Assembly (NCBI RefSeq): GCF_036345155.1
Contig: NZ_CP107772.1
Coordinates: 8,742,001 to 8,806,000, forward strand
From: Streptomyces sp. NBC_00582
GTDB taxonomy: Bacteria > Actinomycetota > Actinomycetes > Streptomycetales > Streptomycetaceae
Direction: 5' to 3'
DNA length: 64,000 bases
Under the pieces are notes generated by a model. The model was not told the origin of the DNA. It did not search any database and saw only the letters and a list, made by a program, of their open reading frames with translations. Position 1 is the stretch's first letter, and every line of letters starts with the position of its first letter. Below are positions 12,450 to 56,904 of this stretch, piece after piece. A program made the position numbers and the translations under genes.

Positions 12450-12468
12450 AGTGTGCTGGGGGGCCGGC

Positions 12469-13701
<1,233 letters not shown>

Positions 13702-13783
13702 CGGGTGTCTCCTCGCAGGGACAGGGAGGGGATCGCACGCCGATCGGCATGAACGCGGGGAGCGTTGGAGCGAAACGGTAGGA

Positions 13784-13816: not shown

Positions 13817-13926
13817 ATCCGGTGGTCGCTCCGCCGTGCGGGGAGGGCGTCGGGCGGGCATACTCACAGCGCGAAGCCGCAGGTCGGAGGGTGCGGCCCC
13901 GGCCCGGCAAGTGAGGAGGCGCCACC

Positions 13927-17733: not shown

Positions 17734-17749
17734 GAGCGGGCGACGCGGA

Positions 17750-36799: not shown

Positions 36800-37428
36800 C
36801 CGGCACCCCCCGGATCCGCCGCGACGAACCGCACGCGCGTGCCCGGCGAGAGCAAAGCGGCCGGTACGCGCGCGTGGTCCCACAGCACGACGTCCGTGCT
36901 GCCGATGAGCTGCCAGCCGCCCGGCGACGAGCGCGGGTACACGCCCGTGTACGGCCCGGCCAGCGCCACCGCACCGGCCGGCACCGCGGTGCGCGGCGTG
37001 GCCCGGCGCGGGACGTCGTAGCGCGCGGGCAGTCCGGTGAGATAGCCGAAGCCCGGCGCGAACCCGCAGAAGGCGACCCGGAACTCGGTGTCCGCGTGGA
37101 TCCGGGCCACCTCGCGCGCGGAGACACCCCAGTGGGCGGCGACGTCCGCGAGGTCGGGGCCGTCGTAGCGCACCGGCAGCTCGATCACCTCGCGCGCCCG
37201 CGGGGGAGCGGGCGGGACGTCGGCGGCGGTCAGTTCGGAAGTCAAACGGACCGGGTCGGGCACACCGTCCAGGAGTACCGTCCGGGCCGCCGGGACGATC
37301 TCCCGGGCCGTCAGCAGTCCGGCCGCCCGACGACGCACCAGCTCCGCGTGCAGCGCCTCCGCCTCGGTGCCCGAGGCCACCTCGACGAGCAGGGCGTCGT
37401 CCCCGACCGGCAGGACACGCAGGCTCAT
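36796..37428 (-). CDS. pxpB: 5-oxoprolinase subunit B
   Basis: 210 residues from the ATG at 37428, overlapping the pxpA stop. KipI/PxpB family: start SLRVLPVGDDALLVEVASG, core VIELPVRYDGPDLADVAAHWGVSAREVARIHADTEFRVAFCGFAPGFGYLTGLP and ATPRTAVPAGAVALAGPYTGVYPRSSPGGWQLIG. Works with PxpC as the ATP-using half of 5-oxoprolinase. In Bacillus the relatives KipI/KipA also affect a sporulation kinase; no such target is evident here. Confidence 0.95.
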   Translation of the reverse strand: MSLRVLPVGDDALLVEVASGTEAEALHAELVRRRAAGLLTAREIVPAARTVLLDGVPDPVRLTSELTAADVPPAPPRAREVIELPVRYDGPDLADVAAHWGVSAREVARIHADTEFRVAFCGFAPGFGYLTGLPARYDVPRRATPRTAVPAGAVALAGPYTGVYPRSSPGGWQLIGSTDVVLWDHARVPAALLSPGTRVRFVAADPGGAG

Positions 37429-38183
37429 GCGAAGGCCTCCACGCGCACCCCGGACGCCTCCAGTCGCCGTCGGACCCGGCGCGCCAGCTCCACCGCGCCG
37501 GGCGTGTCGCCGTGCAGACACAGGGAACGCGCGCGTACCTCGATGACCGGCCCGGCCGCGGAGGCGACCGTGCCGGAACGGGCCAGGCTCACCGACCGTT
37601 CGACGACGGTGACCGGATCGGTGACCACGGCCCCGTCCAGGCCGCGCGGCACGAGTGTGCCCTGCTCGGTGTACGCGCGGTCCGCGAACGCCTCGGGGAC
37701 GGCCGGCAGACCCGCCGTGCGGGCCGCGTCCAGCAGACGCGAGCCGGGCAGCCCGAGCACCGGCAGCGTGGCGTCCGCGAGCAGCACCCCGTCCACCACC
37801 GCGCCGGCCTGCTCCTCGTCGTGCACGACCCGGTTGTAGAGCGCCCCGTGCGGCTTGACGTACGCCACGCGCGCGCCCGCCGCCCGGGCGAAGACCTCCA
37901 GGGCGCCGATCTGGTACGCCACCTCGGCGGCCAGTTCGGCGGGCGGCACGTCCATGGCGCGCCGCCCGAACCCGGCCAGGTCCCGGTAGGAGACCTGTGC
38001 GCCGATCGTCACGCCCCGCTCGGCCGCCAGCTCGCACACCCGCCGCATGGTGGCCGCGTCCCCGGCGTGGAAGCCGCAGGCCACATTGGCGCTCGTCACG
38101 ACGGACAGGAGCTGTTCGTCGTCGGTGAGCCGCCAGCGGCCGAAGCCCTCGCCGAGGTCGGCGTTCAGATCGATCGCGGTCAT
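37425..38183 (-). CDS. pxpA: 5-oxoprolinase subunit A (LamB/YcsF family)
   Basis: 252 residues, full length. TAIDLNADLGEGFGRWRLTDDEQLLSVVTSANVACGFHAGDAATMRRVCELAAERGVTIGAQVSYRDLAGFGRR contains the family metal/active-site residues, followed by VKPHGALYNRV and CLHGDTPGAVELARRVR. It hydrolyses the activated lactam to glutamate. It starts 32 bases after the DUF1445 gene and overlaps pxpB, so the order transporter, cyclase, A, B, C is one operon. Confidence 0.96.
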   Translation of the reverse strand: MTAIDLNADLGEGFGRWRLTDDEQLLSVVTSANVACGFHAGDAATMRRVCELAAERGVTIGAQVSYRDLAGFGRRAMDVPPAELAAEVAYQIGALEVFARAAGARVAYVKPHGALYNRVVHDEEQAGAVVDGVLLADATLPVLGLPGSRLLDAARTAGLPAVPEAFADRAYTEQGTLVPRGLDGAVVTDPVTVVERSVSLARSGTVASAAGPVIEVRARSLCLHGDTPGAVELARRVRRRLEASGVRVEAFA

Positions 38184-38215
38184 GGTTCCTTCCTGATGTC
38201 TGGCCGTGTCCTGTG

Positions 38216-39130
38216 TCAGGCCACGCGGTACTGCTCATCGCGGGCGTCGGTGAGGAACATCTGTCCCGGTGCGTGGGTGAGGGCGAACGGGGGGCGCGAG
38301 GCCATCACCGCGGCCTGCGGGGTCACACCGCAGGCCCAGAACACCGGGATGTCGTCCGGCTCGGCGTCCACCGGGTCGCCGAAGTCGGGCCGGCCGAGGT
38401 CGTCGATGCCGAGTCCCGACGGATCGCCGCAGTGTACGGGGCTGCCGTGCACCGCCGGGAGCAGACTGCTCTCCCGGATGGCGGCCGCCAGGTGCCGCGG
38501 CGGCACCGGACGCATCGACACCACCATCGGGCCGTGCAGCCTGCCCGCCGGCCGGCACGGACGATTCGTCACGTACATGGGGACGTTGCGCCCCTGTTCG
38601 AGGTGGCGGATCGGGACGCCCGCCCCGGACAGCGCCCACTCGAAGGTGAAGCTGCAGCCGATCAGGAACGACACCAGATCCTCGCGCCAGTACGCGCGCA
38701 CGTCCCTCGGCTCGGCCACCAGCTCGCCGTGCTCCCACACCCGGTAGCGCGGCAGATCCGTGCGCAGATCGGCGCCCTCGGCGAGGACGGTCGTCCAGGA
38801 ACCGGCGTCGGTGACGTCGAGCACCGGACACGGCTTCGGGTTGCGCTGGCAGAACAACAGCATGTCGTACGCCCAGTCCGCGGGCACCGCGATCAGATTG
38901 ACCTGGGTGTGGCCCGCCGCGACCCCGGCCGTGGGGCCCGCGAGGCCCTCCCGGAAGCGGGCTCTCGCGGTCTCGGGGCTCCACGCGTGCGCGTGCTCGT
39001 CCACGAGGGTCAGGGGGACGTCTTCCGTGACGCTGTTTTCCGGGACGCCGTCCCGCGGGACGCCCGACGGTGTGCGGGGAGGCGGAAGAGGGGCCGAGAG
39101 GCGCTCCTCGGCGAGGATCGGACGGTTCAC
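38216..39130 (-). CDS. DUF1445 protein, D-glutamate cyclase-like
   Basis: 304 residues from the GTG at 39130, which overlaps the transporter stop. The family core begins around residue 55 ([55 protein letters not shown]) and includes [31 protein letters not shown] and [12 protein letters not shown]. The mammalian homologue DGLUCY cyclises D-glutamate to 5-oxo-D-proline; bacterial members are often called putative hydro-lyases. The first ~50 residues are an extension beyond the usual family start, so a later start is possible. Context with pxpABC supports a 5-oxoproline link. Confidence 0.85.
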
Positions 39131-40428
39131 TCCAGTTCCTTCCCGCGTGTCTCCGGCAGCCCCAGCAGCGCGAGGGCGGCGATCCCGTAGCCGAGTGCGC
39201 CGAAGACCAGCGCGCCGCCCACCCCCCAGCTGTCGGCCAGATAGCCGACCGTGGTGGGGAAGACGGCGCCGACGGCGCGCCCGGTGTTGTACGTGAAGCC
39301 CTGCCCGGTGCCGCGCACGGCCGTCGGGTACAGCTCGCTCAGATAGGACCCGAAGCCGCTGAAGATCGCCGACATGCAGAACCCCAGCGGGAAGCCGAGG
39401 ACCAGGAGCAGAGTGTTGGCGCCGTCGGGGATGTGGGCGTACGCCAGGATGCAGAGCGCCGACAGCAGGGCGAACAGCCAGATGTTGCGGCGCCGGCCCA
39501 GCCGGTCGGTGAGATGGCCGCCGGTCAGGTAGCCGAGGAAGGCGCCCGAGATCAGGAAGCTCAGATAGCCGCCGGTGCCGACCACCGACAGGCCCCGGTC
39601 CGACTTCAGATAGGTCGGCACCCAGGTCGCCAGGGTGTAGTAGCCGCCCTGGACGCCGGTGGACAGCAGCCCGGCGAAGAGCGTCGTGCGCAGCAGCGGG
39701 CCCTTGAAGATGGCCGGGAACGAGCCCTTCACCGCGCTCTGCTCACGGGCGGCGGCCGCCTCCGGCGCGTCCTTCACCCGGCGCCGCACCCACACCACGA
39801 GCAGCGCGGGCAGCGCGCCCGTCCAGAACATCACCCGCCAGGCCACGTCGTCGCCGAAGAACGAGAAGACCAGCGTGTAGACGATCACCGCGAGCCCCCA
39901 GCCGACGGCCCAGGAGCTCTGGACCGCGCCGAGGGTGCGGCCCCGGTGCCGGGCGCTCGCGTACTCGGCGACCAGGATGGCGCCGACCGCCCACTCGCCG
40001 CCGAAGCCGAGGCCCTGCAGGGCGCGGAAGACCAGCAGCGTCTCGTAGTTCGGCGCGAAGCCGCAGGCGACGGTGAACACGGCGTACGTGATCACCGTGA
40101 TCATCAGGGCCCTGACCCGGCCGATCCGGTCGGCCACGACGCCCGCGACGGCGCCGCCGATCGCGGACACGACCAGGGTGACCGTGGTGAACAGCCCGGT
40201 CTGGCCGTTGTCCAGGCCGAAGTACGCGGTCAGGGCGACCATGCTCAGCGGCAGCGTGAAGTAGTCGTAGGAGTCGAGGGCGTAGCCGCCGAACGCGCCG
40301 GCGAAGGCGCGACGGCCCCGCGGGCCGAGGGCGCGCAGCCAGGCGAACGCCCCGTCATCGGGGGCAGGGGCGGCGGTGGCGGGGCGCTTGTCGTCGGGCG
40401 GGGCCTGCGGTGGAGGGGTCGAGCTCAT
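39127..40428 (-). CDS. MFS transporter, SHS/aromatic-carboxylate type
   Basis: 433 residues, 12 helices. [41 protein letters not shown] and [33 protein letters not shown] are the sugar-porter/SHS carboxylate-transporter signatures. [17 protein letters not shown] repeats the motif in the second half. Head gene of the pxp operon, so 5-oxoproline, glutamate derivatives or a related acid is the likely substrate (inference). The regulator and operator lie directly upstream. Confidence 0.88.
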
Positions 40429-40540
40429 GGGGCACCTCGCAGAGGGATGACGAAGGGTGCGGGAGTGAGCGGGTCGTGCGCCGTGCGTGCGGCGCGTGCG
40501 GTACGTGCCGTGGACGAGAAGGTACGCGACAGGAAGGTAG

Positions 40541-40559
40541 AGGATCGTTGAACGATCCT
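40541..40559. promoter_or_regulatory. Palindromic operator between pxp operon and gntR
   Basis: AGGATCGTTGAACGATCCT is a perfect 19-base palindrome around a central G. It lies 50 bases before the gntR start and 113 before the transporter start. This is the best candidate binding site for the FadR-type regulator. Confidence 0.75.
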
Positions 40560-40608
40560 TCAATACCCGTGTTGGTTCGTTCTCGTGTTCTGCGGTTGAA
40601 TTCCGGGC

Positions 40609-41319
40609 ATGGCAGAGCAGCTTGCGGGACTGGCCGACGACCGCACCCTCCTCGGGCGCACCAGCACGGCCGAGCGGGTTTCGGACATCCTCAGGAGCCG
40701 TATCGCCGAGGGCTTCTTCCCTCCGGGAACCCGGCTGTCGGAGGACAGCATCGGCGGGGCGCTCGGGGTCTCCCGCAACACGCTCCGCGAGGCGTTCCGG
40801 CTGCTCACCCATGAGCGGCTGCTCGTCCACGAGCTGAACCGGGGCGTGTTCGTGCGGGTCCTGACCGTCGAGGACGTCGAGGACATCTACCGCACACGCG
40901 CGCTCGTCGAGTGCGCCGTCGTACGCGGGCTGGGCGAGCCGCCGTACGGGCTGGACGCCCTGCGCGCGGCCGTCACCGAGGGCCAGGTGGCCTCCATCGA
41001 AAATGACTGGAAAGCAGTGGGTACCGCCAACATCCACTTCCACCGCGAACTGGTCGCCCTGGCCGGCAGCGCCCGCACCGACGAACTGATGCGCAGCGTC
41101 TTCGCCGAGCTGCGCCTCGCCTTCCACGTGGTCGACGACCCGCGCCAACTGCACGAGCCGTACCTCATGCGCAACCGCCAGATCCTCCAGGCCCTGGAGG
41201 CCGGCGACCGGGCCGGGGCGGAGCGGCTGCTCGACATCTATCTGCGGGACTCCCTGGCCCGGGTCGTCGAGGTCTACCGGAGCCGGGTGGGCGAAGGCAC
41301 CGGCAAGGGCGAGGCCTGA
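40609..41319 (+). CDS. FadR/VanR-type GntR transcriptional regulator
   Basis: 236 residues. Winged helix: TAERVSDILRSRIAEGFFPPGTRLSEDSIGGALGVSRNTLREAFRLLTHERLLVHELNRGVFV. The C-terminal FCD domain (TVEDVEDIYRTRALVECAVVRGL, IHFHRELVALAGSARTDELMRSVFAELRLAF, YLMRNRQILQALEAGDRAGAERLLDIYLRDS) binds carboxylate ligands through a metal. Divergent from the pxp operon, it is the likely repressor, with 5-oxoproline or a related acid as inducer (inference). Confidence 0.93.
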   Translation: MAEQLAGLADDRTLLGRTSTAERVSDILRSRIAEGFFPPGTRLSEDSIGGALGVSRNTLREAFRLLTHERLLVHELNRGVFVRVLTVEDVEDIYRTRALVECAVVRGLGEPPYGLDALRAAVTEGQVASIENDWKAVGTANIHFHRELVALAGSARTDELMRSVFAELRLAFHVVDDPRQLHEPYLMRNRQILQALEAGDRAGAERLLDIYLRDSLARVVEVYRSRVGEGTGKGEA

Positions 41320-41413
41320 GGCCGTCCGGCGCCCTCGTCGACGGCCGTCACGGCCCCGGTCGCTTCTGCGGTCGTTTGGGTCGTTGTCAGACCGAGGACC
41401 TACTCTGTGCACC

Positions 41414-42940
41414 GTGACTTCGCCTGCATCGACGGACCGTGTTCCGCCCCAGCTCAGCGCGGGGCCGCGCCCGGCTCCGGGCCCGGCCGCCGACGAGGGC
41501 CTGGCGCGGCGCCTGCGCGCGCTCGCCTGCACCGCGCCCCTCCACGACCTCGACGCACGCAAGGCGAACCTCGCCGGTGAGTACTCGGTCTACGGCATGG
41601 CGGAGGTCGCCCTCGCCGCCATCGACCTCGTCACCCTGAACATGGACTTCGACACGGGCGCCGACCACGACCAGATAGTGGCCCGCCTCATCCCGCGCAT
41701 CGCCGCCCAGGCCCCGCACCGGCCCGTCGCCGAGCACGAGCGCGTGGCCCGCTGGGTCCTGGAGAACCTGATCAACGTCGGCAGCGTCGACCGCGGCTTC
41801 CGCGCCGTGTACGGCACCTTCACGGCGGACGGCACCTATGTGCGCCGCGACTACGACTTCAAGCTGATCGAGGAGGTCCCCGGCTACGGCGGCACGGTCT
41901 ATCTGCGGACCACCGACGAGGCGGTCAACGTCCTCGTCGGGGCCCTCGACACCGACGTCACCAGCGCCCAGATCGCCGCCGAGGTCAAGCTCGAGGTCCT
42001 CATCCGCCGCGGCCGCCTCGCCGACGCCCAACTCGCCGCCGAACAGGCCCGCTACCGCACCGTGCAGTACTCCGAGACCCTCCGCCGGGCCCTGGAGGCC
42101 ACCCGGCGCAACGTCCGCGCGGTGGACTGGCTCAACGCCGTGCCCGACATGATCGCCGAGGCCCTCGACCACGTGGCCGACCGCTACCGCCACGAGAACG
42201 CGATCCTCACCAACATCCGCAGGGCCCGCGACGAGATCGAGGACGCCGACAACAAGCGGCGCGCCGCCGAACTCGTCGACATCGTCAAGGACTGCATCCG
42301 CCGCCACACCCAGCTCCAGTCCCGCCTCCTGGAGGCCGGCCCGCTCTTCCGCGCCGAACAGGACCGGCAGGCCTTCGCCACGCCCATGACGTCCTCGGGC
42401 ATCGACCTCTACGGCCATCTCGTCACCCCCGTGCTCCCGTTGCCGCTGGAACAGGCGGCCCGGGTCACCGGCGCGTTCTTCGCGCGCGGGACGGGATTCC
42501 GGACCCCGGCGTCCGTCCGGATGGGCGACCTCGTCGACCTGCTGCTGACCCCACCGGTGGAGCGGGAGCACCTGGGCGCGGAGATGCCGGAGCCCGACCT
42601 CATCGCGACCCCGGACGACAGCCGCTTCAGCGAGGAACAACTGGCCGCCGCGAAGCAACTGCTCGACCTCCCGGCGGACGCGCCCCGCAGACTCTCGGGA
42701 CTGCTGGCCGAGGCCCGGCGGTCCGATCCCGATCTGCCCTACCTGGTGGCGCTGCTGGCCGTGCACGCGGCGAGCCCCGCCGTCGGCACGGCCTACCGGC
42801 AGGGCGAGGAGAAGCTGCTGTTCGCCGTGGACGACGGGACGGAGCTGGACGACCCCGAGTTCGGCGGCGCCGACCTCATCGTCGGCACCGCCCTGCTGGA
42901 CGCCGCGGGGATGGCGGCGGACCGCACGGAGGCGGCATGA
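41414..42940 (+). CDS. MukF/JetA-like kleisin candidate of the SMC locus
   Basis: 508 residues from the GTG at 41414; no strong ribosome site, so leaderless translation or the TTG at 41384 are alternatives. Residues ~30-150 look like a winged-helix module (ARRLRALACTAPLHDLDARKANLAGEYSVYGMAEVALAAIDLVTLNMDF, HERVARWVLENLINVGSVDRGF). The middle is long helical, with heptads in LAAEQARYRTVQYSETLRRALEATRRNVRAVDWLN and IRRARDEIEDADNKRRAAELVDIVKDCIRRHTQLQSRLLEAG. The order before a MukE-like and an SMC-like gene matches MksF/JetA. Homology is inferred from organisation and shape; no specific motif proves it. Confidence 0.6.
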   Translation: MTSPASTDRVPPQLSAGPRPAPGPAADEGLARRLRALACTAPLHDLDARKANLAGEYSVYGMAEVALAAIDLVTLNMDFDTGADHDQIVARLIPRIAAQAPHRPVAEHERVARWVLENLINVGSVDRGFRAVYGTFTADGTYVRRDYDFKLIEEVPGYGGTVYLRTTDEAVNVLVGALDTDVTSAQIAAEVKLEVLIRRGRLADAQLAAEQARYRTVQYSETLRRALEATRRNVRAVDWLNAVPDMIAEALDHVADRYRHENAILTNIRRARDEIEDADNKRRAAELVDIVKDCIRRHTQLQSRLLEAGPLFRAEQDRQAFATPMTSSGIDLYGHLVTPVLPLPLEQAARVTGAFFARGTGFRTPASVRMGDLVDLLLTPPVEREHLGAEMPEPDLIATPDDSRFSEEQLAAAKQLLDLPADAPRRLSGLLAEARRSDPDLPYLVALLAVHAASPAVGTAYRQGEEKLLFAVDDGTELDDPEFGGADLIVGTALLDAAGMAADRTEAA

Positions 42941-42996
42941 GCCGACCACGACCTCACCCGAACGACCACGAGAACACCGAGGAGCCGAACCCGTGA
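42937..42996 (+). CDS. 19-codon linking ORF between the kleisin-like and MukE-like genes
   Basis: ATG at 42937 overlaps the upstream stop (ATGA); TGA at 42994-42996 overlaps the downstream GTG (GTGA). It encodes MSRPRPHPNDHENTEEPNP. It may simply couple translation across the gap, or be a microprotein; composition is not informative. Confidence 0.35.
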   Translation: MSRPRPHPNDHENTEEPNP

Positions 42997-43871
42997 GCGA
43001 GCACGTCGAGTGGAGCGAGCCGGACACGGGACCCGCGCCGGTGTCCGCGCCGCTCACCCCCGCCGACGCCGCCGACGCGGCGCGGCTCGTCGCCTTCGGC
43101 CTGCAGCCCAAACTGCAGCCCGCGCGTGACCAGGAGTACGCCGACCTGCTGCGCCGGTACCGCGAGGACCCGGCGTTCGCCCGGCTCGCCGACGCCGTCG
43201 CCGCCGGACTCGGCCTGATCGTGCTGGAGGTGTCCCCGCGCGCGGGGATGGCCGTGACCGCCGCCGAGGACTCGGTGTTCGCCGTGCGCATGGGTGACTA
43301 CGCGCGTCGCACCTCCGCCGACGGCGGCGACCGCTTCCTGCACGGCCTCGCCCATCTCGCGGTCGCTGCGCTGGCGTTCCCGCGCCCCGAGGACCTCGCC
43401 GACGACGGATACATCGGGAGGGTCAGCGTCAACGGCGTCGACGCCTTCGTCCGCCAGGCCTGCCGCCGGCTGGAGGAGCGCGCCGAGGAACAGGGCGAGA
43501 ACACCGACCCGGCCACCGACGCGCCCGGTCTCGAGGCCGCCTGGCGGATCTGGGCCAGACGCAGCGCCGCCGGAGCCACCAAGGACGCCCGCAGACTCGC
43601 CGGCTCCACCACCGGCATCGTCGGCAAGGCCGTCGCCTTCCTCACCGACTCAGGCTTCCTCCAGCGCACCGGCGACGACAACGGCGGGACGTACCGCACC
43701 ACGGCCCGCTACCAGCTCCAGGTCCGTGACATGGCGGGCAGCGCCGCCCTGGCCGAACTGCTGGAACTGGGCGTCGTCCCGGTCACCGACGGCACACCGA
43801 CCCTGCTGCCCCCGGACGAGACGGACGACCTGGACCTGGTGGCCGACGCCGGACTGCCGTTCCACTCCTGA
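42993..43871 (+). CDS. MukE/JetB-like winged-helix protein
   Basis: 292 residues from the GTG at 42993 (GAGGAG at 42980). Residues ~25-165 are a first helical/WHD module (DQEYADLLRRYREDPAFARLADAVAAGLGLIVLEVSPRAGMAVTAAEDSVFAVR, RFLHGLAHLAVAALAFPRPEDLADDGYIGRVSVNGVDAFVRQACRRLEE). A second winged helix lies at ~195-250 (GIVGKAVAFLTDSGFLQRTGDDNGGTYRTTARYQLQVRDM). Tandem WHDs are the architecture of MukE and DUF4194/JetB. The last 40 residues are acidic. It is the middle gene of the SMC cassette. Confidence 0.65.
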   Translation: MSEHVEWSEPDTGPAPVSAPLTPADAADAARLVAFGLQPKLQPARDQEYADLLRRYREDPAFARLADAVAAGLGLIVLEVSPRAGMAVTAAEDSVFAVRMGDYARRTSADGGDRFLHGLAHLAVAALAFPRPEDLADDGYIGRVSVNGVDAFVRQACRRLEERAEEQGENTDPATDAPGLEAAWRIWARRSAAGATKDARRLAGSTTGIVGKAVAFLTDSGFLQRTGDDNGGTYRTTARYQLQVRDMAGSAALAELLELGVVPVTDGTPTLLPPDETDDLDLVADAGLPFHS

Positions 43872-43932
43872 CGGCTGCTCGCAGCCACCGAACCCCTGAA
43901 CCGCCGAAGACGAAGACTTACGAGAGTCCGCC

Positions 43933-46900
43933 ATGTACGAGCTGTCCCGGGTCCGCCTCTACTCCATCGGGCCCGCCGGTGCGCGCTATGCCGACACCGT
44001 GCTTGACCTGCGGGGCGTCGGCGACGTCGTACCCGACCCCGCCCCCACGCAGGCGGAGTTCTTCGAGGAGGAGCCCGTCGGTCCGCCACGCCGGCCCGCG
44101 CCCGCCGGTGTGCTCTTCCTGGAGAACGGCGGCGGCAAGTCCGTCCTGCTCAAGCTGATCTTCTCGGTGATGCTGCCGGGCCACCGCAACACCCTCGGCG
44201 GCGCCAGCTCCGGCGTGCTGCGCAAGTTCCTGCTCGCCGACGACTGCGGGCACGTGGCGCTGGAATGGCAGCACGTCCTCACCGGCGAGTGTGTCGTCGT
44301 CGGCAAGGCCAGCGAGTGGCGGGGACGGCAGGTCTCCAACGACCCGAGGAAGTTCGCCGAGGCCTGGTACTCCTTCCGGCCCGGCCCGGGGCTCAGCCTC
44401 GACAACCTCCCCGTCGCCGAGTCCACCGCCGTACGCCCGCCCGTCGAGGGTGCCTCCGGTGCCCAGGGGCGGCGACGCACCATGAAGGGCTTCCGCGACG
44501 CGCTCACCGAGGCGGGCAAGGCGTATCCGCACCTGGAGGTGCACTGGGAGGAGATCCACGACCGGTGGGTGGAACACCTCACCGAACTCGGGCTCGACCC
44601 CGAACTCTTCCGCTACCAGCGGGAGATGAACGCCGACGAGGGCGAGGCGGCCGGCCTGTTCGCGGTCAAGAAGGACGCGGACTTCACCGACCTGCTGCTG
44701 CGGGCGGTGACGGACACCCGCGACACCGACGGACTCGCCGACCTCGTCAGCGGCTTCGGCAACAAGCTCGGCCGACGTGCCGAACTGATCGCCGAACGCG
44801 ACTTCACCGCCGGGTCCGTGGACCTGCTCGGACGGATCGTGGAGGCCGCCGAGGGCCGCTCACGCGCGCGTGACATCCACACCGGCGCCGAGCGCCGTAC
44901 CCGCACGCTGGCCCGCCGACTGTCCTCGCGGGGCGTGCGGGAGCGGATGCGGGCCGCCGACCTCGCCCAGCGGGTCACGGCCGCCGCCTACGCCGTCACG
45001 CACTCCGAGGGAGGACGCGAGCGCAGCGCGCTGATCGCCGCCGAACTCGCCTTCCGGCACGCCTCGCTGGCGCTCGCCGCCGCGGAGAAGTCCGCCGCCG
45101 CGCAGAAGCGCGAACTCGCCGACGCGCGCACCCTGCACTCCGCCTGGCAGGCCGCCGAGGCCGTCCTGCGCCACCGTGCCGCCGCCGACCGCGTCGCGCG
45201 CGTCTCCGCCGCGATCCAGGAGGCCGAGCGCGACGCCGCCCCGGCCCTCGCCGCCCGCGCCAAGGCCGCCGTCGACCTCGTACGGGCCCTGCACGCGGCG
45301 GCCGAGAGCGCCGAGACCCTCGCCAACGAGGAGGAGGAACGCTCGGCCGCCCTGCAGGAGGTCGGGGAGACCGCCCACCGGGACTCCACCTCCGCCGCGA
45401 CCGAGGCGCAGCGCGCCCGCAGCGAGATCGGTCATCTGCGCCAGCGGCTCACCGAGGTCGAGCAGGAGACCGCCGAGGCCGTCCGGGCCGGCTGGCTGGA
45501 CGACAGCGCTCCCGACGCCGACCCGGCACGCGCGGCCCTCGCCGCCAGTGACGCCGAGAAGACGGCCGTGGCCGCCTGGGACACCGCCCGGGAGGTGTCC
45601 CGCAGGGCCACCGAGCACGCGCGCGAGGCCGCCTCCGCCGAGTCCCGCGCCGAGCTGACCGCAGCCCGCGCCGCCGACGCGGCCGCCGCCGCGCAACGCT
45701 CGTACGAGGCCGAACGCCGGCTCGCCGAGGCCCTGGCCGAGGAGGAGCGGCTCACCGAGCTGCTCGGCCTCACCGGTGGAACCGGCCGCGGACCCGTTCC
45801 GCGGCCCCGCCAGGACGAGGACGCCGACGCGGACGACGGCGCCTCCCTCACCCCCGAGGACCTCGACCGCTGCGCCGACGAGCTGCGCGGGCTGCTCGAC
45901 GACGCCGTCTCCTCCGCCGAACGCCAGCTCTTCGACCTGCGCACCGCGGCCGCCGACGACTCCCGCATCCTCGGCGCGCTCGGCGACGGCGGGCTGCTGC
46001 CGCCCGGCCCCGACGTGCTGGCCACCGTCGAGTTCCTCGGCGAACACGGCATCCCCGCCCTGCCCGGCTGGCGCTACCTCGCCCAGGCCGTCGACCCCGC
46101 CGACCACGCGCGCGTGCTCGCCGCCCGCCCCGAACTGGTCGACGGCGTGATCATCACCGACCCCGACTCGCACGCACGCGCGCGGGAGGCCCTCAGCGAC
46201 GCCGCCCTGCTGCCGCGCTCGGCCGTCGCGGTGGGCACGGCCGCCGCGCTGCTCGCACCGACCCCGGCCGCCGACGCGCAGCACGGTGATGTCTTCCTCG
46301 TACCGCCGAACCCCGCCATGCACGACGAGCACGCCGCCGACGAGGAACGCCAGGCGCTGCGCGCACGGGCCACCGAACGGGACGAGGACATCCGCCGGCT
46401 CGCCGCGCGGCTCGGCAAGGACCGGGAACTGTCGGCCCGGCTCGCGTCCTGGCGCACCGGCTGTCCCGCGGGACGGCTCACCGAGCTCGCCCGGGCCGCC
46501 GGGGAGGCGCGCGCCTTCGCCGAGGAGTCCGAGGGCGAACTCGCCGAGGCCCGCACCGTGCGCGCCGAGGCGGAGGAGGCCGCCGCCGAGGCCGCCCAGG
46601 TCCGCGACGAGAAGCAGGAGACCGCCCAGAAGGCCCGGCGCGCCGCCGACGCCCTCGCCGGGCTCGGCTTCCGCCTGCGGGAACGCGCGGGCTGGCAGGT
46701 CAAGCTCCGCGAACTCGCCGACGAGGCCGCCGAGTCGGAGGCCCGCGCGCAGTCCTGCCTGGAGCGCGCCCGCGCCGCCGACGAGGACCGCCGCGCCGCC
46801 CAGCGCGCTGCGGACGACGCCCGCCGCACCGCGCGGGCGCTGCGTGCCGAGCGCTCCGAGATCGCCGGCGCCCCCGACGACGTACCGGAGGGCGATCCGC

Positions 46901-48567
46901 AGGCGCCGAAGGCGTCCCTGCCGGCCCTGCGCGAGGCATACCGGGCCGCCTCCCAGGTCTATGAGAAGGTCGGTGTCGGCGCCGACCTGCGGGCCGAGCA
47001 GGCGCGCGCGGAGAGCGACGAGAGCGCCGCCCGCGCGGAGCTGGACCGGCTGAGCAACAAGGTCCGCACGCGTGCCGAGCAGCTCCTGCAGTCGCCCGAG
47101 GGCTCCGACGGGCCGTCCCGGCAGGCCGCCGCCGCCCGCGCCGAGGAACTCGTCCAGCTCCTCGAGACCCGTATGTCCACCGCGAGCGAGCAGCTCGGCC
47201 GGCTGCGCGGCGAGGCCGAGCGGCACGCACCCGAGGACGGCGAGACGCACACCGAGCTCACCGAGGAGCTCCAGCCACGCGACGCCGAGCACGCCCAGGC
47301 CCTGCTGCGCACCGCGACGGCCGAACTCGCCTCCCGCACCGAGGCGCTGGCCCAGGCCCGCGAGGCGCACGCCGAACTCCTCGACGCCCACCGGGCCGCC
47401 GAGGGCGCGGCGGGCGGCTTCGACGAGATCGCCGCGATGCTCCGTGATCTGATGCGCGAGCAGACCCGTGAGCCTTCCGAGGAGGAACAGGAGGCCCCCG
47501 AGCCCTACCCCGGGACGCTGGAGGAGGCCAGGCAGTCGGCCGCCGAGGCCCGCCGCTCGCTGCGCGGCTGCGCCGCCGACCTCTCCGCCGCCGAGTCCGC
47601 CGTACGCGAGGCCAGTGATGTGCTTGTGCGGCACGCCAACTCCACGCGCTACGAACAGGTCCGTACGCCCGCCCGGCAGCAGATCCGCGAACTGCCCGCC
47701 TCCGCGCTGCCCGAGCACGCCCAGAAGTGGGCGGACGCCTTCGCCCCCCGGCTCCGCGTGCTCACCGACGAGTTGGAACAGCTCGAACGCAACCGCGACT
47801 CGATCGTGGACCGGCTGCGCGGACTCGTCGAGTCGGCGCTCGCCACGCTCCGCTCGGCCCAGCGGCTCTCGCGGCTGCCCGAGGGCCTCGGCGAGTGGTC
47901 CGGCCAGGAGTTCCTTCGCATCCGCTTCGAGGAGCCCGACCAGGCCACCCTCACCGAGCGGCTCGGCGAGGTCATCGACGAGGCGACCCGCGCCGCCGTG
48001 AAGAAGAACTCCGACCTGCGGCGTGACGGCATGTCCCTGCTGCTGCGGGGCGTGGGCGCCGCTCTGCAGCCCAAGGGCATCGCGGTCGAGATCCTCAAGC
48101 CGGACGCCGTGCTCCGGGCCGAGCGGGTCCCGGTCGGACAGATGGGTGACGTGTTCTCCGGCGGTCAGCTGCTCACCGCCGCCATCGCCCTGTACTGCAC
48201 GATGGCGGCGCTGCGCTCCAACGACCGGGGCCGGGACAAGCACCGGCACGCCGGCACGCTGTTTCTCGACAACCCCATCGGCCGGGCCAACGCGACCTAT
48301 CTGCTGGAACTCCAGCGGGCCGTGTCCGACGCGCTCGGTGTCCAGTTGCTGTACACCACCGGACTGTTCGACACGACGGCGCTGGCGGAGTTCCCCCTCG
48401 TCATCCGGCTCCGCAACGACGCCGACCTCAGGGCCGGCCTGAAGTACATCAGCGTCGAGGAACACCTGCGACCCGGTCTGCCCCAGCCACCCCGGTCGGA
48501 CGAGGCCGTGCACAGCGAGATCACTGCGACCCGGATGTACAAGCGCCCGGCCGTCGGCGCTTCGTAG
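43933..48567 (+). CDS. SMC/MukB-like coiled-coil ATPase
   Basis: 1544 residues. Head halves are at the two ends: Walker A FLENGGGKSVLLKL (ENGGGKS at 64-70), ABC signature VFSGGQLLTAAIAL (1408-1412 FSGGQ) and Walker B TLFLDNPIG (Asp1446), then VQLLYTTGLFD. Between them lie two long Ala/Glu/Arg coiled coils (about 330-620 and 800-1250). A globular centre at ~630-790 (LGALGDGGLLPPGPDVLATVEFLGEHGIPALPGWRYLAQAVDPADHARVLAARPELVDGVIIT) fits a hinge. Size and layout match MukB/MksB/JetC. The residue after the Walker B Asp is Asn, where SMC ATPases normally have the catalytic Glu. Third gene of the cassette; no JetD-like nuclease follows. Confidence 0.82.
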   Translation: MYELSRVRLYSIGPAGARYADTVLDLRGVGDVVPDPAPTQAEFFEEEPVGPPRRPAPAGVLFLENGGGKSVLLKLIFSVMLPGHRNTLGGASSGVLRKFLLADDCGHVALEWQHVLTGECVVVGKASEWRGRQVSNDPRKFAEAWYSFRPGPGLSLDNLPVAESTAVRPPVEGASGAQGRRRTMKGFRDALTEAGKAYPHLEVHWEEIHDRWVEHLTELGLDPELFRYQREMNADEGEAAGLFAVKKDADFTDLLLRAVTDTRDTDGLADLVSGFGNKLGRRAELIAERDFTAGSVDLLGRIVEAAEGRSRARDIHTGAERRTRTLARRLSSRGVRERMRAADLAQRVTAAAYAVTHSEGGRERSALIAAELAFRHASLALAAAEKSAAAQKRELADARTLHSAWQAAEAVLRHRAAADRVARVSAAIQEAERDAAPALAARAKAAVDLVRALHAAAESAETLANEEEERSAALQEVGETAHRDSTSAATEAQRARSEIGHLRQRLTEVEQETAEAVRAGWLDDSAPDADPARAALAASDAEKTAVAAWDTAREVSRRATEHAREAASAESRAELTAARAADAAAAAQRSYEAERRLAEALAEEERLTELLGLTGGTGRGPVPRPRQDEDADADDGASLTPEDLDRCADELRGLLDDAVSSAERQLFDLRTAAADDSRILGALGDGGLLPPGPDVLATVEFLGEHGIPALPGWRYLAQAVDPADHARVLAARPELVDGVIITDPDSHARAREALSDAALLPRSAVAVGTAAALLAPTPAADAQHGDVFLVPPNPAMHDEHAADEERQALRARATERDEDIRRLAARLGKDRELSARLASWRTGCPAGRLTELARAAGEARAFAEESEGELAEARTVRAEAEEAAAEAAQVRDEKQETAQKARRAADALAGLGFRLRERAGWQVKLRELADEAAESEARAQSCLERARAADEDRRAAQRAADDARRTARALRAERSEIAGAPDDVPEGDPQAPKASLPALREAYRAASQVYEKVGVGADLRAEQARAESDESAARAELDRLSNKVRTRAEQLLQSPEGSDGPSRQAAAARAEELVQLLETRMSTASEQLGRLRGEAERHAPEDGETHTELTEELQPRDAEHAQALLRTATAELASRTEALAQAREAHAELLDAHRAAEGAAGGFDEIAAMLRDLMREQTREPSEEEQEAPEPYPGTLEEARQSAAEARRSLRGCAADLSAAESAVREASDVLVRHANSTRYEQVRTPARQQIRELPASALPEHAQKWADAFAPRLRVLTDELEQLERNRDSIVDRLRGLVESALATLRSAQRLSRLPEGLGEWSGQEFLRIRFEEPDQATLTERLGEVIDEATRAAVKKNSDLRRDGMSLLLRGVGAALQPKGIAVEILKPDAVLRAERVPVGQMGDVFSGGQLLTAAIALYCTMAALRSNDRGRDKHRHAGTLFLDNPIGRANATYLLELQRAVSDALGVQLLYTTGLFDTTALAEFPLVIRLRNDADLRAGLKYISVEEHLRPGLPQPPRSDEAVHSEITATRMYKRPAVGAS

Positions 48568-48586
48568 CCGGGCCGACCGCATGAGA

Positions 48587-48618
48587 TGGGTGCCGGGCGC
48601 CAAGGGGCCCGGCACCCA
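48587..48618. terminator. Bidirectional terminator after the SMC gene
   Basis: GGGTGCCGGGC (48588-48598) pairs with GCCCGGCACCC (48607-48617), plus a flanking T-A pair, over an 8-base loop. It lies between the convergent SMC stop (48567) and the small membrane gene stop (48626). Confidence 0.85.
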
Positions 48619-48625
48619 CGGGTGC

Positions 48626-49084
48626 TCAGGAGTGCGAGAGCTGCCCGGTGCCGCCCTGACGGCGTATCCGCTCCTGCGCCCGCTCCATGGCCCTGGCCTG
48701 GCGCCGCGCCCGGCGGCGCTCACGGCGCAGCGAGCGGGCCGTGCTGCTGGGTGCCGACACCACGCCGTTGCGCTGGTTCCACACCTGGCGGGTCACCCAG
48801 ACGTCCAGCACCGACCACGTGGCCACCACGGTGCTGACCACACTGCTGATCACCATCGGGAAGGCCAGCCAGGACTCGGCGAGGGTGCACAGGAACGCCA
48901 CCATCGCCTGAAGCAGCGTCACGGAGGCGATGAGGACCGCGCGTACGGCCGCCGTACGCACCGGATCCGGCAGCCGGCGCCGTCGCGCGGGCTCCTCCAC
49001 CCACAACGGCCGGTAGGACACCCGCTCCTGTGTCGTGATCGCCACACCCTCTTCGGACGCCTCACGCCGCTCCGCCGTGCCCAT
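48626..49084 (-). CDS. Small two-helix membrane protein with basic tail
   Basis: 152 residues from the ATG at 49084 (GGGGAG ribosome site). After a soluble Arg/Glu start of about 45 residues, AVLIASVTLLQAMVAFLCTLAESWLAFPMVISSVVSTVVATWSVLDVWVTRQVW forms two membrane helices. The C-terminus is very basic and helical (RSLRRERRRARRQARAMERAQERIRRQGG), facing the cytoplasm. No family recognised. Transcribed divergently from the conservon. Confidence 0.75.
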   Translation of the reverse strand: MGTAERREASEEGVAITTQERVSYRPLWVEEPARRRRLPDPVRTAAVRAVLIASVTLLQAMVAFLCTLAESWLAFPMVISSVVSTVVATWSVLDVWVTRQVWNQRNGVVSAPSSTARSLRRERRRARRQARAMERAQERIRRQGGTGQLSHS

Positions 49085-49469
49085 CAACGTGTCACTCCCC
49101 ACCGCCGGCAGACCGCTCACTTCCGGGTCGAAGACCCGGCTCCCCAGTGGCTGCCCGGCTTGCTCTGTTTTACGCCGCCGGGGGACAGCCTGCGGCTCCT
49201 GTGGCCGATTCCGCCCCCGTTTCCCAATGATGAAGACGCACGAGAAGCCGTGAAGATTCCCAAGTTGCGAAAAATTCTGGCCAAGTCCACGACGTGGCCG
49301 ATCGATTCCGGTCTTCTCGGGAAGGCGGGTTTCAGGGTCGCAATCCCCCGTATTGCCCGGACAACTCACCATGTCCGGACGCTGGTGCGGAAGTTCGGCT
49401 TCCGGACCGCTCTTCGAGTTAACCGCGCGTCGGTAGTAGGCTCGCGCCGTTTGTTGACGCACATGCGTA
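49085..49469. other. Divergent upstream region of the conservon
   Basis: About 385 bases, with a comparatively AT-rich stretch at 49220-49340 and no convincing gene. GTTAACC (about 49417) and TTGACG (about 49454) near the 3' side are possible promoter parts for cvnA. One frame on the plus strand is open but Arg-rich and lacks bias. Confidence 0.4.
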
Positions 49470-49486
49470 CCCCCTGACGCAGGGGG
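49470..49486 (+). promoter_or_regulatory. Short perfect hairpin just before cvnA
   Basis: CCCCCTG (49470-49476) pairs with CAGGGGG (49480-49486) around ACG, ending about 8 bases before the GGGGGAGG ribosome site of cvnA. It could control translation initiation or be an operator. Confidence 0.4.
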
Positions 49487-49504
49487 TTCGAGCTGGGGGA
49501 GGCC

Positions 49505-52420
49505 ATGCGCTTTCGCGGGAAGTCGATCCGCCGGAAGATCGTGGCGCTGCTTCTCGTGCCGCTGGTGTCCCTGACCGCGATCTGGGGCTTCGCCACGGTA
49601 CTGACGGGCCGTGAGGCGAACCGTCTGTTCACCGTGTCGTCCCTCGTGGAGAAGGTCGGCTACCCCATCGAGGACACGGTCCGCGTCGTCCAGCAGGAGC
49701 GCCGCCAGACCCTCGTCTACCTCGCCGACCCCCGCGCCTCCGACGCGCTCTCCGCCCTGCGTCGCACCCGGACCGCCACGGACGAGGCGCTCGCCGAGAT
49801 CCGCCGCAACGCCCGGGACTCCGATGTCCGCGAGGTCCTGGACCAGGACGACGGCGAGGGCCTGACCGCGGTCCTCGACGCCTTCGACGGACTCGACTCC
49901 CTGCGCGGCAGTGTCGAGGAGGGCACCGTCACCCGGGCCCAGGCGCTGGACCTCTACAACCGGCTCATCGACCCCTGCTACGCGCTGCTGGCCAAGCTGG
50001 ACGTGGTCGACAGCGTGGAGATGGACAAGCAGTACCGGGCTCTCGTCAGCGTCGCCCTCGCCCGCGAGCTGCTCTCCCGGGAGGACGCCCTGCTCGGCTC
50101 CGCCCTGGTCGTCGGCCGGCTCACCCGCGAGGAGATCCGCGAGGTCTCCGACTTCCAGGCGCAGCGCGACGTCGTCTACGACACCAGCCTGGCCCAGTTG
50201 CCCTCCGCCGAGCGCGAGCGCTACGAGAGCTTCTGGAAGAACGCCACCACCGCCCCCCTGCGCACCGCCGAACAGGCCGTCGTCGCCGCCGCGCCCGGCA
50301 CCCCGCCCAAGGGCGTCACCGCCAGGAACTGGGACACGGCGGCCGGAGACGTCCTCCAAGAGCTCGGCACCCTGGACGAACAGGCCAACGACCGCTACCA
50401 GGACCGCGTCCGGCCGGTGGCGATCGAGGTCATCGTCAAGGCGGTCTTCGCCGGCGTCTTCGGTCTGGTCGCCCTGATCGTCTCCCTCGTCCTGTCCGTG
50501 CGCATCGGCCGCGGCCTCATCCGCGACCTGCGCCAGTTGCGGCTGGAGGCCCACGAGGCGTCCGGTGTGCGGCTGCCCAGCGTGATGCGGCGTCTGTCCG
50601 CGGGCGAACAGGTCGACGTGGAGACCGAGGTGCCGCAACTGGAGTACGACAAGAACGAGATGGGCGAGGTCGGCCAGGCCCTCAACACCCTCCAGCGCGC
50701 CGCGGTCGAGGCCGCCGTGAAGCAGGCCGAACTGCGGGCCGGGGTCTCCGAGGTCTTCGTCAACCTGGCCCGACGCAGCCAGGTCCTGCTCCACAAGCAG
50801 CTCACCCTGCTCGACACCATGGAGCGCCGCACCGAGGACGCCGAGGAACTCGCCGACCTCTTCCGGCTCGACCACCTCACCACCCGCATGCGCCGTCACG
50901 CCGAGGGCCTGGTGATCCTCTCCGGCGCGGCCCCCTCCCGGCAGTGGCGCAAACCCGTCCAGCTCATGGACATCGTGCGCGCCGCCGTCGCCGAGGTCGA
51001 GGACTACGAGCGCATCGAGGTCCGCCGCCTGCCGCGCCTCGCCGTCACCGGACCCGCCGTCGCCGACCTCACCCACCTCGTGGCCGAGCTCCTGGAGAAC
51101 GCCACGGTGTTCTCCCCGCCGCACACCGCCGTCCAGGTCCTGGGCGAGCGGGTCGCCAACGGATTCACCCTGGAGATCCACGACCGAGGCCTCGGCATGG
51201 CCCCCGAAGCGCTCCTGGAGGCCAACCTCCGTCTCGCGGAGACCCCGGAGTTCGAGCTGTCCGACACCGACCGCCTCGGACTGTTCGTGGTCAGCCGCCT
51301 CGCCCAGCGCCAGAACGTCCGTGTCTCCCTGCAGCCCTCCCCCTACGGCGGCACGACCGCCGTCGTCTTCATCCCCGACGCCCTCCTGACCGACGACGTC
51401 CCCGACACCAACGGCATCGGCTTCCGCCTCGACCGCCCCCGCGCGCCGAAGGCGGCCGAGTCCGACGACACCCGCAGGCCCGCGCTGACCCCGTCCGTGC
51501 AGCTTCCCGGCATGCCCGTGCTGGACGGCCCGGTCGAGCTGGAGGCCCCCGTCGACCTCGACGCCCTCGGCGGCTTCCCGGCCCCCCTGGACGACGAGGA
51601 CGACAGCGGTGCCCTCTTCCGCCCGCGCCGCTCCCTCACCCGACCCGAGGACGCCCCGGCCGTCACCGCCGCCGACCCGCACCGCAGGCTGCCCGACACC
51701 CCCGGTGAGCCGGGCCACGGGACCGGGGACCCGGCCGCCCTGCTGCCGCTGCCCGGCCGCCCTACACCCAAGCTGGTCAGCTCGCACGGCCGCCCGGTCG
51801 TCGACCCGCGCTCCCCGCGCGCGGAAACGGACGAGGACGCCGCGCACCGCGCCGCACAGCACCGGACGGACTCCGGCGGGCCGGCTCCCCTGCCCTCGCG
51901 CCGCCGGGGAAGCGGGGCGCAGATCCCGAGGAGCACCGGCGCGAACGAGCCCCCGGCGCCGCCGGCCCGCCCCGGACACGGCACCGGCGAGCCGTGGCAG
52001 GCCCCCGCCCTCCCGCAGCGCGCCCGCCAGGCGGCGTCCGACGGCGGGCACGACCCGGCCGCACGCCCGCGCCCGATACCCGACCCACGCGCGAGTGGCG
52101 CGGGCGGCCCAGCGGAGCGCAGGCTGGAAAGCGGCCCCCAGGACCGCGCCCCGGGCAGCGGGCCTCATGACACCGGCTCCGCGCCCGCGGCGCTGCCCCG
52201 CCGGGTACGGCAGGCCAACCTCGCCCCGCAACTGAGGCAGGGGCCCGCGCCGCGCCCGGGAACCCGCTCCGACCTTGAGGACCGGGACGCCGACGAGGTA
52301 CGCAGCCGCATGGCATCGCTCCAGCGAGGCTGGCAGCGCGGCCGCGCAGAGAACGCCGCGGGCGACGAGACCCACAGCGGCACAGCACCACAACGAACGA
52401 CTAAGGGGGACGGTCGATGA
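49505..52420 (+). CDS. cvnA: Conservon sensor kinase-like protein CvnA
   Basis: 971 residues. Membrane helices at about 12-33 and 308-332 flank an extracellular, helical NIT-type sensor domain. Next comes a HAMP-like segment, a dimerisation helix (LFRLDHLTTRMRRHAEGLVIL), and a GHKL ATPase with N-box LVAELLENATVFSPP, G1 IHDRGLGMAP and GLFVVSRLA. From about residue 640 a proline/charged, disordered tail of 330 residues makes it longer than usual. In Streptomyces, CvnA sits in a membrane complex with CvnB-D, likened to eukaryotic G-protein coupled signalling. Stop overlaps cvnB. Confidence 0.93.
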   Translation: MRFRGKSIRRKIVALLLVPLVSLTAIWGFATVLTGREANRLFTVSSLVEKVGYPIEDTVRVVQQERRQTLVYLADPRASDALSALRRTRTATDEALAEIRRNARDSDVREVLDQDDGEGLTAVLDAFDGLDSLRGSVEEGTVTRAQALDLYNRLIDPCYALLAKLDVVDSVEMDKQYRALVSVALARELLSREDALLGSALVVGRLTREEIREVSDFQAQRDVVYDTSLAQLPSAERERYESFWKNATTAPLRTAEQAVVAAAPGTPPKGVTARNWDTAAGDVLQELGTLDEQANDRYQDRVRPVAIEVIVKAVFAGVFGLVALIVSLVLSVRIGRGLIRDLRQLRLEAHEASGVRLPSVMRRLSAGEQVDVETEVPQLEYDKNEMGEVGQALNTLQRAAVEAAVKQAELRAGVSEVFVNLARRSQVLLHKQLTLLDTMERRTEDAEELADLFRLDHLTTRMRRHAEGLVILSGAAPSRQWRKPVQLMDIVRAAVAEVEDYERIEVRRLPRLAVTGPAVADLTHLVAELLENATVFSPPHTAVQVLGERVANGFTLEIHDRGLGMAPEALLEANLRLAETPEFELSDTDRLGLFVVSRLAQRQNVRVSLQPSPYGGTTAVVFIPDALLTDDVPDTNGIGFRLDRPRAPKAAESDDTRRPALTPSVQLPGMPVLDGPVELEAPVDLDALGGFPAPLDDEDDSGALFRPRRSLTRPEDAPAVTAADPHRRLPDTPGEPGHGTGDPAALLPLPGRPTPKLVSSHGRPVVDPRSPRAETDEDAAHRAAQHRTDSGGPAPLPSRRRGSGAQIPRSTGANEPPAPPARPGHGTGEPWQAPALPQRARQAASDGGHDPAARPRPIPDPRASGAGGPAERRLESGPQDRAPGSGPHDTGSAPAALPRRVRQANLAPQLRQGPAPRPGTRSDLEDRDADEVRSRMASLQRGWQRGRAENAAGDETHSGTAPQRTTKGDGR

Positions 52421-52848
52421 CCGCACCGCAGGCGACCGGCCACATGAGCAACAACGGCGAACTGAACTGGCTCCTCGACGAACTCGTCGACCGGGTCGCC
52501 AGCATCCGCAAGGCCGTCGTGCTCTCCGGCGACGGTCTGGCGACCGGGGCGTCCAGGGACCTGACCAGGGAGGACAGCGAGCACCTCGCCGCCGTCGCCT
52601 CGGGCTTCCACAGCCTCGCCAAGGGCGTCGGCCGGCACTTCGAGGCCGGTGACGTCCGTCAGACCGTCGTCGAACTCGACGAGGCGTTCCTGTTCGTCAC
52701 GGCCGCCGGTGACGGCAGTTGCCTCGCCGTCCTCTCGGACGCCGACTCGGACGTGGGCCAGGTGGCGTACGAGATGACCCTGCTGGTCAAGCGGGTCGGC
52801 GTACATCTGGGCACCGTCCCGCGCACCGATCTGCCCTCGGGCGGGTAG
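52417..52848 (+). CDS. cvnB: Conservon Roadblock/LC7 protein CvnB
   Basis: 143 residues from the ATG at 52417 (AAGGGGG ribosome site), overlapping the cvnA stop; an ATG at 52444 is also possible. A Roadblock/LC7 fold: ELNWLLDELVDRVASIRKAVVLSGDGLATGASRDLTREDSEHLAAVASGFHSLAKGVGRHF, VVELDEAFLFVTAAGDGSCLAVLSDADSDVGQVAYEMTLLVKRVG. Related to MglB and dynein light chain proteins that control small GTPases; its likely partner is CvnD. Confidence 0.94.
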   Translation: MTAPQATGHMSNNGELNWLLDELVDRVASIRKAVVLSGDGLATGASRDLTREDSEHLAAVASGFHSLAKGVGRHFEAGDVRQTVVELDEAFLFVTAAGDGSCLAVLSDADSDVGQVAYEMTLLVKRVGVHLGTVPRTDLPSGG

Positions 52849-52857
52849 TGGGATGGC

Positions 52858-53253
52858 ATGAGCACAGACGGTCAGGGAAGCAGCCACTGGTTCGACGACG
52901 ACGCCGGACCGGTCGTCCGTCCCTACGCCATGACACGGGGCCGCACCACCAGTGCGGTCCAGCACCGTCTCGATCTGATCGCAGTCGTCGTCGCCGAGCC
53001 CCACGCCGAGGATGCCGAAACCGACCCGTCGCTCTCCCCGGAACACGTGCACATCGTGGACCTGTGCCGCCGGGCGCCGCAGTCGGTCGCCGAGCTCTCC
53101 GCCGAGCTCGATCTGCCCATCGGCGTGGTACGGGTCCTCGTCGGCGACCTCGTGGACACGGAATTCGTCCATGTGAACCGGCCCGTACCCCCTGCCGAAC
53201 TGGTGGACGAGAGCATCCTCCGCGACGTGATCAACGGCCTCCGGGCGCTGTGA
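52858..53253 (+). CDS. cvnC: Conservon DUF742 protein CvnC
   Basis: 131 residues. DUF742 family: VRPYAMTRGRTTSAVQHRLDLIAVVVAEPH, then a winged-helix-like HIVDLCRRAPQSVAELSAELDLPIGVVRVLVGDLVDTEFVHVNRP, ending ESILRDVINGLRAL. It may link the sensor to transcription or to the GTPase; the biochemical role is unsettled. Nine bases separate it from cvnB. In a normal conservon cvnD follows directly, but here a 3.6-kb enzyme gene stands between. Confidence 0.94.
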   Translation: MSTDGQGSSHWFDDDAGPVVRPYAMTRGRTTSAVQHRLDLIAVVVAEPHAEDAETDPSLSPEHVHIVDLCRRAPQSVAELSAELDLPIGVVRVLVGDLVDTEFVHVNRPVPPAELVDESILRDVINGLRAL

Positions 53254-53277
53254 GCAGCACGGAAGCGAGGTGAGGAC

Positions 53278-56901: not shown

Positions 56902-56904
56902 ACG

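Follow-up and report, generated by a model that had tools for sequence, protein, structure and literature searches.

Type III Wadjet systems (JetABCD) combine a kleisin, a KITE protein and an ATPase of the structural maintenance of chromosomes (SMC) kind with the nuclease JetD. According to the accessible portions of one survey, Wadjet is enriched in Actinobacteria and lies mostly towards the chromosome ends in Streptomyces (PMC10482375). MksBEFG/EptABCD, the actinobacterial MukBEF-like complex of Corynebacterium and Mycobacterium smegmatis (PMC10123090, as far as its text is accessible), carries the MksG/JetD nuclease and acts against plasmids; MksBEF of Pseudomonas aeruginosa and MukBEF have no nuclease. 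An origin of MksBEF, and possibly also of MukBEF, in a defence system that lost its nuclease has been proposed in the available part of another article (PMC10586767), and MksBEF is the published precedent for a nuclease-free complex of this sort. The locus considered here lies in a 64,000-nucleotide stretch of Streptomyces sp. NBC_00582 (the window; positions 8742001-8806000 of contig C1 in an 11.1-Mb genome, G000; 72.5% GC) and comprises jetA (41414..42940), jetB (42993..43871) and jetC (43933..48567), all on the forward strand. These genes very probably represent a type III Wadjet JetABC without JetD that has become a vertically inherited core SMC complex of the Streptomycetaceae. Wadjet type III and this cassette have in common the kleisin and SMC families, the gene order A-B-C and a paralogue in the same genome; the cassette differs in its missing JetD, in being near-universal and mostly syntenic, and in not having been found on plasmids. 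With MksBEF and MukBEF it shares the lack of a nuclease and, by weak models, its top fold matches (MukF, MukE), but it belongs to another Wadjet type, has no MukB or MksB sequence match in Pfam or the PDB, and has JetD-bearing relatives, one of them in its own genome. Presumably, and unlike MksBEF and MukBEF, it coexists with Smc-ScpAB. Taken as a whole, and judged from sequence, it would be a condensin-like complex that derives from Wadjet, works without a nuclease and helps to maintain the chromosome when DNA is damaged, a reading to which a probability of roughly 0.65 is given.

A preliminary description of the window had recognized a three-gene SMC cassette of MksFEB or JetABC shape (a helical winged-helix protein, a tandem winged-helix protein and a 1544-residue SMC-like ATPase), and this is borne out by profile searches. 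The 508-residue JetA is assigned to JetA3 by the PADLOC models (PDLC00567; 621 bits, E 5.7e-187) and the 1544-residue JetC to JetC3 (PDLC00588; 1409 bits), the latter with the ATPase motifs ENGGGKS (Walker A), FSGGQ (signature) and LFLDNP (Walker B). JetC matches no Pfam family at E ≤ 1, SMC family domains of the Smc-ScpAB kind included; kinship to MukB or MksB was likewise not found in Pfam at that threshold, PDB sequence searches with both alignments returned nothing relevant, and the 'MukB-like' JetC1 model matched only the paralogous JetC described below (E 0.12). The 292-residue JetB gave no significant family in Pfam, PADLOC or NCBIfam. It can be identified as the JetB KITE subunit by place and homology, being 41% identical to the gene at the JetB place of a JetABCD locus in the same genome, which itself has no match to a hidden Markov model (HMM). 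The structural comparison put forward in the preliminary description ranked Muk/Jet entries first for both small proteins, MukF and Muk complexes for JetA and JetABC and MukE entries for JetB, although the models were weak (pLDDT 58 and 71 for the kleisin and KITE models; Foldseek E 0.04-0.3; root-mean-square deviation of 12-35 Å for JetA). The kleisin and KITE folds are thus putative, as suggested by weak models.

No JetD was detected by HMM within 6 kb downstream of jetC, in agreement with the preliminary description, and the single tblastn match to JetD on that side (E 7e-4) falls inside the end of jetC itself. As for the further suggestion that the nuclease might be encoded elsewhere, the genome does have a JetD; this JetD adjoins a second JetABC located 6.2 Mb away. 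Searches of the genome with PF09983 and JetC3 placed this complete type III JetABCD at C1:2566384-2574278 (6385-14278 of locus L006), with a JetD3 gene scoring 418 bits. Beside the 41% identity of JetB, its JetA and JetC are 35% and 33% identical to the window proteins (JetC over the second half), and this paralogue is an internal control for the window cassette. Decay of JetD in place is ruled out by the absence of any remnant in 102 JetD-less downstream stretches, where two tblastn matches, at L137 and at the window's own locus (L042), lie within the 300 bp that belong to the end of jetC. A replacement nuclease is not present in the operon either, the next gene being convergent. When JetD-bearing and JetD-less proteins were compared, residue shifts gave no clear JetD-contact signature, and a few residue states were common to Streptomycetaceae and Frankiaceae.

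The cassette is found throughout the genus. In a first draw of 121 Streptomyces-genus genomes, each at least 90% complete, window-type jetA was present in 120 with a best match of 80-100% identity, and the sole genome without such a match (G071) has jetC; JetC3 was detected by HMM in 119, the two misses (G109, G113) being fragmented assemblies in which jetA is present. A further draw, of 147 genomes from across the order and with 12 in common with the first, contained window-type jetA in all 134 of its Streptomyces-genus genomes and a window-type copy in none of its 13 sister-family genomes, one of which has a 32% relative. Relatives occurred in 5 of 105 genera in a class-wide draw of 296 genomes, comprising 31 Streptomyces-genus and 18 Frankiaceae genomes; this draw scored few candidates per genome, and a contig scan later showed relatives in Pseudonocardiaceae too. 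At none of the 120 window-type jetA loci, some of which end at contig edges, was a JetD detected alongside. A second type of jetA, 25-52% identical to the window type, occupies 12 loci in 11 of the 121 genomes and has JetD3 6-8 kb behind it at all 12, so that an oversight of JetD through low sensitivity is ruled out. In one genome (G087) such jetA-to-jetD loci (L114; C1:8876 and C1:9230258) lie near both chromosome ends, apparently within terminal repeats, with a shorter JetD match at the far-end locus.

These genomes bear on the question of whether the cassette still serves in defence against plasmids or phages, with JetABC finding small circles and leaving the cutting to a nuclease encoded elsewhere, either a trans-acting JetD or a host nuclease unrelated to it. 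The closest relatives are indeed JetABCD systems, and a JetD hit of some kind (PF09983 at E ≤ 0.1 or JetD3 at E ≤ 0.01) was obtained in 22 of the 121 genomes. The other 99 have none by either search, however, and the strong JetD3 hits, found in 11 genomes, are without exception downstream of second-type jetA loci. On the same contig as a window-type locus, a JetD hit is never nearer than 278 kb, and in ten of the 22 genomes it is on another contig; adjacency cannot be judged in fragmented genomes such as G099, where jetA sits on a tiny contig and the JetD hit on a different one. Near-universal occurrence at a single site and absence from plasmid and phage collections are also unlike the patchy distribution described for most rare defence systems in the accessible part of PMC10482375, and a trans-acting nuclease is considered unlikely. 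Retention of JetABC across the genus without JetD would most simply point, by analogy, to a DNA-loop motor on the chromosome, and a role on the host's own chromosome is regarded as likelier than one in defence, in keeping with the chromosome-organisation interpretation first offered for the cassette, which is judged supported as a putative function.

The site of the cassette in Streptomycetaceae is largely conserved, as emerged from the synteny comparison advised in the preliminary description. In the window, a GntR/FCD regulator (40609-41319, by family scan) lies upstream of jetA, and jetC is followed by a small convergent open reading frame (ORF; 48626-49084, reverse strand) and a nitrate/nitrite-sensing kinase (49505-52420, by family scan). 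Among 19 window-type stretches of a first set, two of them short, 17 contained all of jetA, jetB and jetC, 13 the convergent gene, 11 the kinase and 9 the GntR gene. At the named Streptomycetaceae loci the convergent gene (28/35) and the kinase (25/34) were found downstream, the GntR gene (21/38) and a LamB/YcsF-like gene named by eye (31/38) upstream, and JetD after jetC at none of 35. Neither 72,556 plasmids nor 50,697 phages contained a window-type copy, which rules out recent transfer; the plasmids gave only four distant matches (28-53% identity), all four with JetD, and the phages none.

The cassette is under purifying selection, with median ratios of nonsynonymous to synonymous substitutions (dN/dS; 253 pairs, 23 loci) of 0.134 for jetA, 0.173 for jetB and 0.237 for jetC. 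Walker A and Walker B are identical at all 23 core loci, and FSGGQ is found at 18, the output for the other five having shown an earlier SGG. This conservation argues against a decaying defence remnant retained by chance, which is judged highly improbable even though broken copies do occur. In G011, a distance of about 1.2 Mb separates jetA from jetC (L049, L106), which looks like a rearrangement that broke the operon where jetA ends; jetC is in two open pieces in G009 (L048) and G325 (L091), through frameshift, insertion or assembly error; and a stop inside the jetA match was counted in 2 of 120 genomes (G084, G027). G011 is a possible natural mutant. A further possibility is that JetABC restricts or silences incoming circular DNA uncut, by compaction or by a block of replication or transcription. 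Smc5/6 is described as recognising and restricting extrachromosomal circular DNA (PMC10586767, in its available portion), and dropping a self-harming nuclease while retaining JetABC would be a plausible path to such a state; near-universality, synteny and purifying selection are nonetheless more than is expected of a defence gene, and this explanation is rated as quite unlikely, more so than a nuclease acting in trans.

The expression of the cassette would fit the chromosome-maintenance reading, since jetABC carries a promoter element that makes it a good candidate for induction by DNA damage. A LexA/RecA-independent (PafBC) damage consensus of mycobacteria reads tTGTCRgtg-8nt-TannnT (PMC5656591, from the part of the article at hand), and the element TTGTCA-N11-TACTCT (41384..41406, forward strand, by motif match) meets all of its capital letters and, of 'gtg', only the first base. 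The window contains this one match against 0.05 expected. The -10 hexamer ends 7 nt before GTG 41414, and the jetA message is therefore probably leaderless; an alternative start, TTG 41384 (ORF 41384-42940), is the first base of the promoter element itself, and the start is best set at the GTG. At 65 Streptomycetaceae loci all nine fixed bases were present in 35 and eight in 24 (59/65 with at least eight), compared with 0.1% and 0.9% of regions in a mononucleotide-shuffled control, although the counts are not independent because the loci share descent. In a narrower scan, 55 of the 65 combined eight or nine fixed bases with an in-frame start codon 6 or 7 nt downstream; among these sites, chosen by their fixed bases, all mismatches affected position 1 or 6, and within the spacer variation was seen at 8-11 and 13-15 and hardly at all at 7, 12, 16 and 17.

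Genome-wide, the motif occurs 50 times, against 9 for the reversed pattern. Forty-six of these sites were inspected, and 45 have an ORF of at least 90 residues within 120 nt, some doubtful. Family scans, which covered 26 of the proteins behind sites, identified RecA, UvrB, RuvC, XseA, ribosomal protein S6 and an ogt-type methyltransferase above curated cut-offs; ssb usually follows the gene of ribosomal protein S6. Below the cut-offs, partly because the stretches ended inside genes, were helicases of DinG/YoaA, UvrD/PcrA (two) and Hel308 type and a uracil-DNA-glycosylase-like protein. The jetABC promoter would thus place the cassette among repair genes. The mycobacterial RecA-independent regulon shares with this set its promoter consensus (PMC5656591) and a recA gene behind such a site; PafBC dependence in this host is putative. 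If the promoter ties jetABC to DNA repair, it bears on the question, raised in the available text of PMC9380542, of a PafBC-type response in Streptomyces.

Several observations weigh against reading the cassette as a nuclease-free, damage-responsive chromosome complex. Some JetD hit exists in 22 genomes, where a nuclease may act in trans, and some window-type loci stop at contig edges. The broken copies of G011, G009 and G325 imply that the complex is dispensable there or that the assemblies are faulty, and the fold matches of the weak structure models are not significant by E-value. Many of the genes behind the 50 sites are unfamiliar or have non-repair products (sigma factor, TerD, MFS, GNAT). 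Exact promoter matches are absent from the JetD-less loci of Frankiaceae (0/17) and Pseudonocardiaceae (0/31) and occur at 4 of 22 JetD-bearing or other loci, including the JetABCD operon of the same genome, whose own damage-type promoter (L222) is at C1:2566323-2566345; with one mismatch allowed, the first two groups have 3/17 and 1/31 and seven more of the 22 are added. The promoter is thus not tied to JetD loss. It lies near the start of the four plasmid copies as well (9, 8, 8 and 8 of the nine fixed bases), and its presence there and at JetD-bearing loci suggests that the element may predate the loss. Finally, a motif search reported in the accessible part of PMC9380542 suggested that S. 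venezuelae has not conserved the PafBC motif.

In the proposed mechanism, transcription of jetABC would rise upon DNA damage, and the kleisin and KITE proteins would turn the JetC dimer into a closed ring, which would spend ATP to extrude or hold loops of chromosomal DNA. As JetD is missing, a loop that has stalled or been extruded completely would stay uncut, and the complex, alongside Smc-ScpAB, could compact or tether the broken or under-replicated chromosomes of multigenomic hyphae or help to segregate them. Two articles on the Streptomyces chromosome describe SMC as the condensin of the genus and, in the portions available, name no second complex (PMC13121528, PMC8410768). The accessible text of PMC10482375 makes no mention of a JetD-less core cassette, and no printed account of a JetD-less type III complex was found in the open-licence PMC literature as far as its texts were accessible. 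The cassette suggests an immune machine turned to everyday chromosome care in Streptomyces.

JetD-less relatives are not confined to Streptomycetaceae. Of 29 genomes assigned to Frankiaceae by protein names, 18 have a close type, 73-100% identical to L089 and about 61-64% to the window, and JetD is found at none of the 10 loci (of 18 fetched) with at least 1.5 kb behind jetC. Genome contigs gave more than 528 loci, and five of the 80 top-ranked ones, all named, have JetD: those of Actinoallomurus, Nocardiopsis, Amycolatopsis rifamycinica and two metagenome-assembled genomes (MAGs), one from Streptosporangiaceae and one from Micromonosporaceae. The A. rifamycinica locus (L165; JetD 16692-17774) is the only one with JetD among 32 Pseudonocardiaceae loci with the jetC end in hand, the other 31 being without. 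Of 29 genomes that carry JetD-less copies (28 from Pseudonocardiaceae and one from Cellulomonas), searched in full, two have a complete JetD3 elsewhere and four have weak hits. In the JetD tree, A. rifamycinica clusters with L099, L059 and L111 (100/98). In the JetA+C tree, these three loci are sister (SH-aLRT 99) to the Pseudonocardiaceae clade to which the JetABC of A. rifamycinica belongs, a correspondence suggesting that the genes were inherited together and hence that JetD was ancestral in this clade.

A single loss, with all JetD-less loci placed together with L165, is rejected by the approximately unbiased (AU) test (p-AU 3.7e-83; 6.8e-5 without L184). Streptomycetaceae and Frankiaceae may or may not share one loss, the outcome depending on the rows used (p-AU 0.0167 with 32 rows vs 0.095 with 45). 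If JetD was ancestral, at least two losses would be required, three not being claimed, and re-acquisition is formally possible. It is an even call that Wadjet was domesticated at least twice in mycelial Actinobacteria through loss of JetD, with the Streptomycetaceae outcome a universal, damage-inducible second condensin that is independent of Smc-ScpAB and of MukBEF/MksBEF and has a nuclease-bearing relative in the same genome. Because JetD-bearing and JetD-less states coexist in one genome and across the tree, an origin by nuclease loss is now testable. L165 has very close JetD-less sisters (branches of 0.01-0.03), a pair for studying loss. A GapA-like gene, named by eye, lies within 4.5 kb at six of nine Pseudonocardiaceae loci looked at (L135, L136, L139, L145, L149, L150), a housekeeping site.

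As for the layout of the window, gaps of only 52 nt (jetA-jetB) and 61 nt (jetB-jetC) make it likely that the three genes, which share one direction and Streptomyces-like codon positions (GC3 0.93-0.94), form one operon. The composition is not foreign, as had been noted before, with a local GC of 0.69-0.78 in 1.5-kb steps over 36000-54000. Of the earlier claim that a small convergent gene follows behind a terminator, the convergent ORF stands and a strong GC-rich hairpin does lie 3' of jetC (48587..48618, forward strand; -39.2 kcal/mol for 71 nt, z -3.3), a possible operon end by folding, but a T-run terminator was searched for behind jetC and not found; an Rfam search gave no match. The convergent gene product has a basic C-terminus and two hydrophobic stretches, both seen by eye. 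Beyond it, 49505-57510 resembles a conservon-like cluster comprising the kinase, a small protein (52417-52848) and a GTPase-like protein (56905-57510), the latter two named by eye. This cluster seems to be split by a hydantoinase/5-oxoprolinase gene (53278-56901), which in some other genomes sits upstream of jetA.

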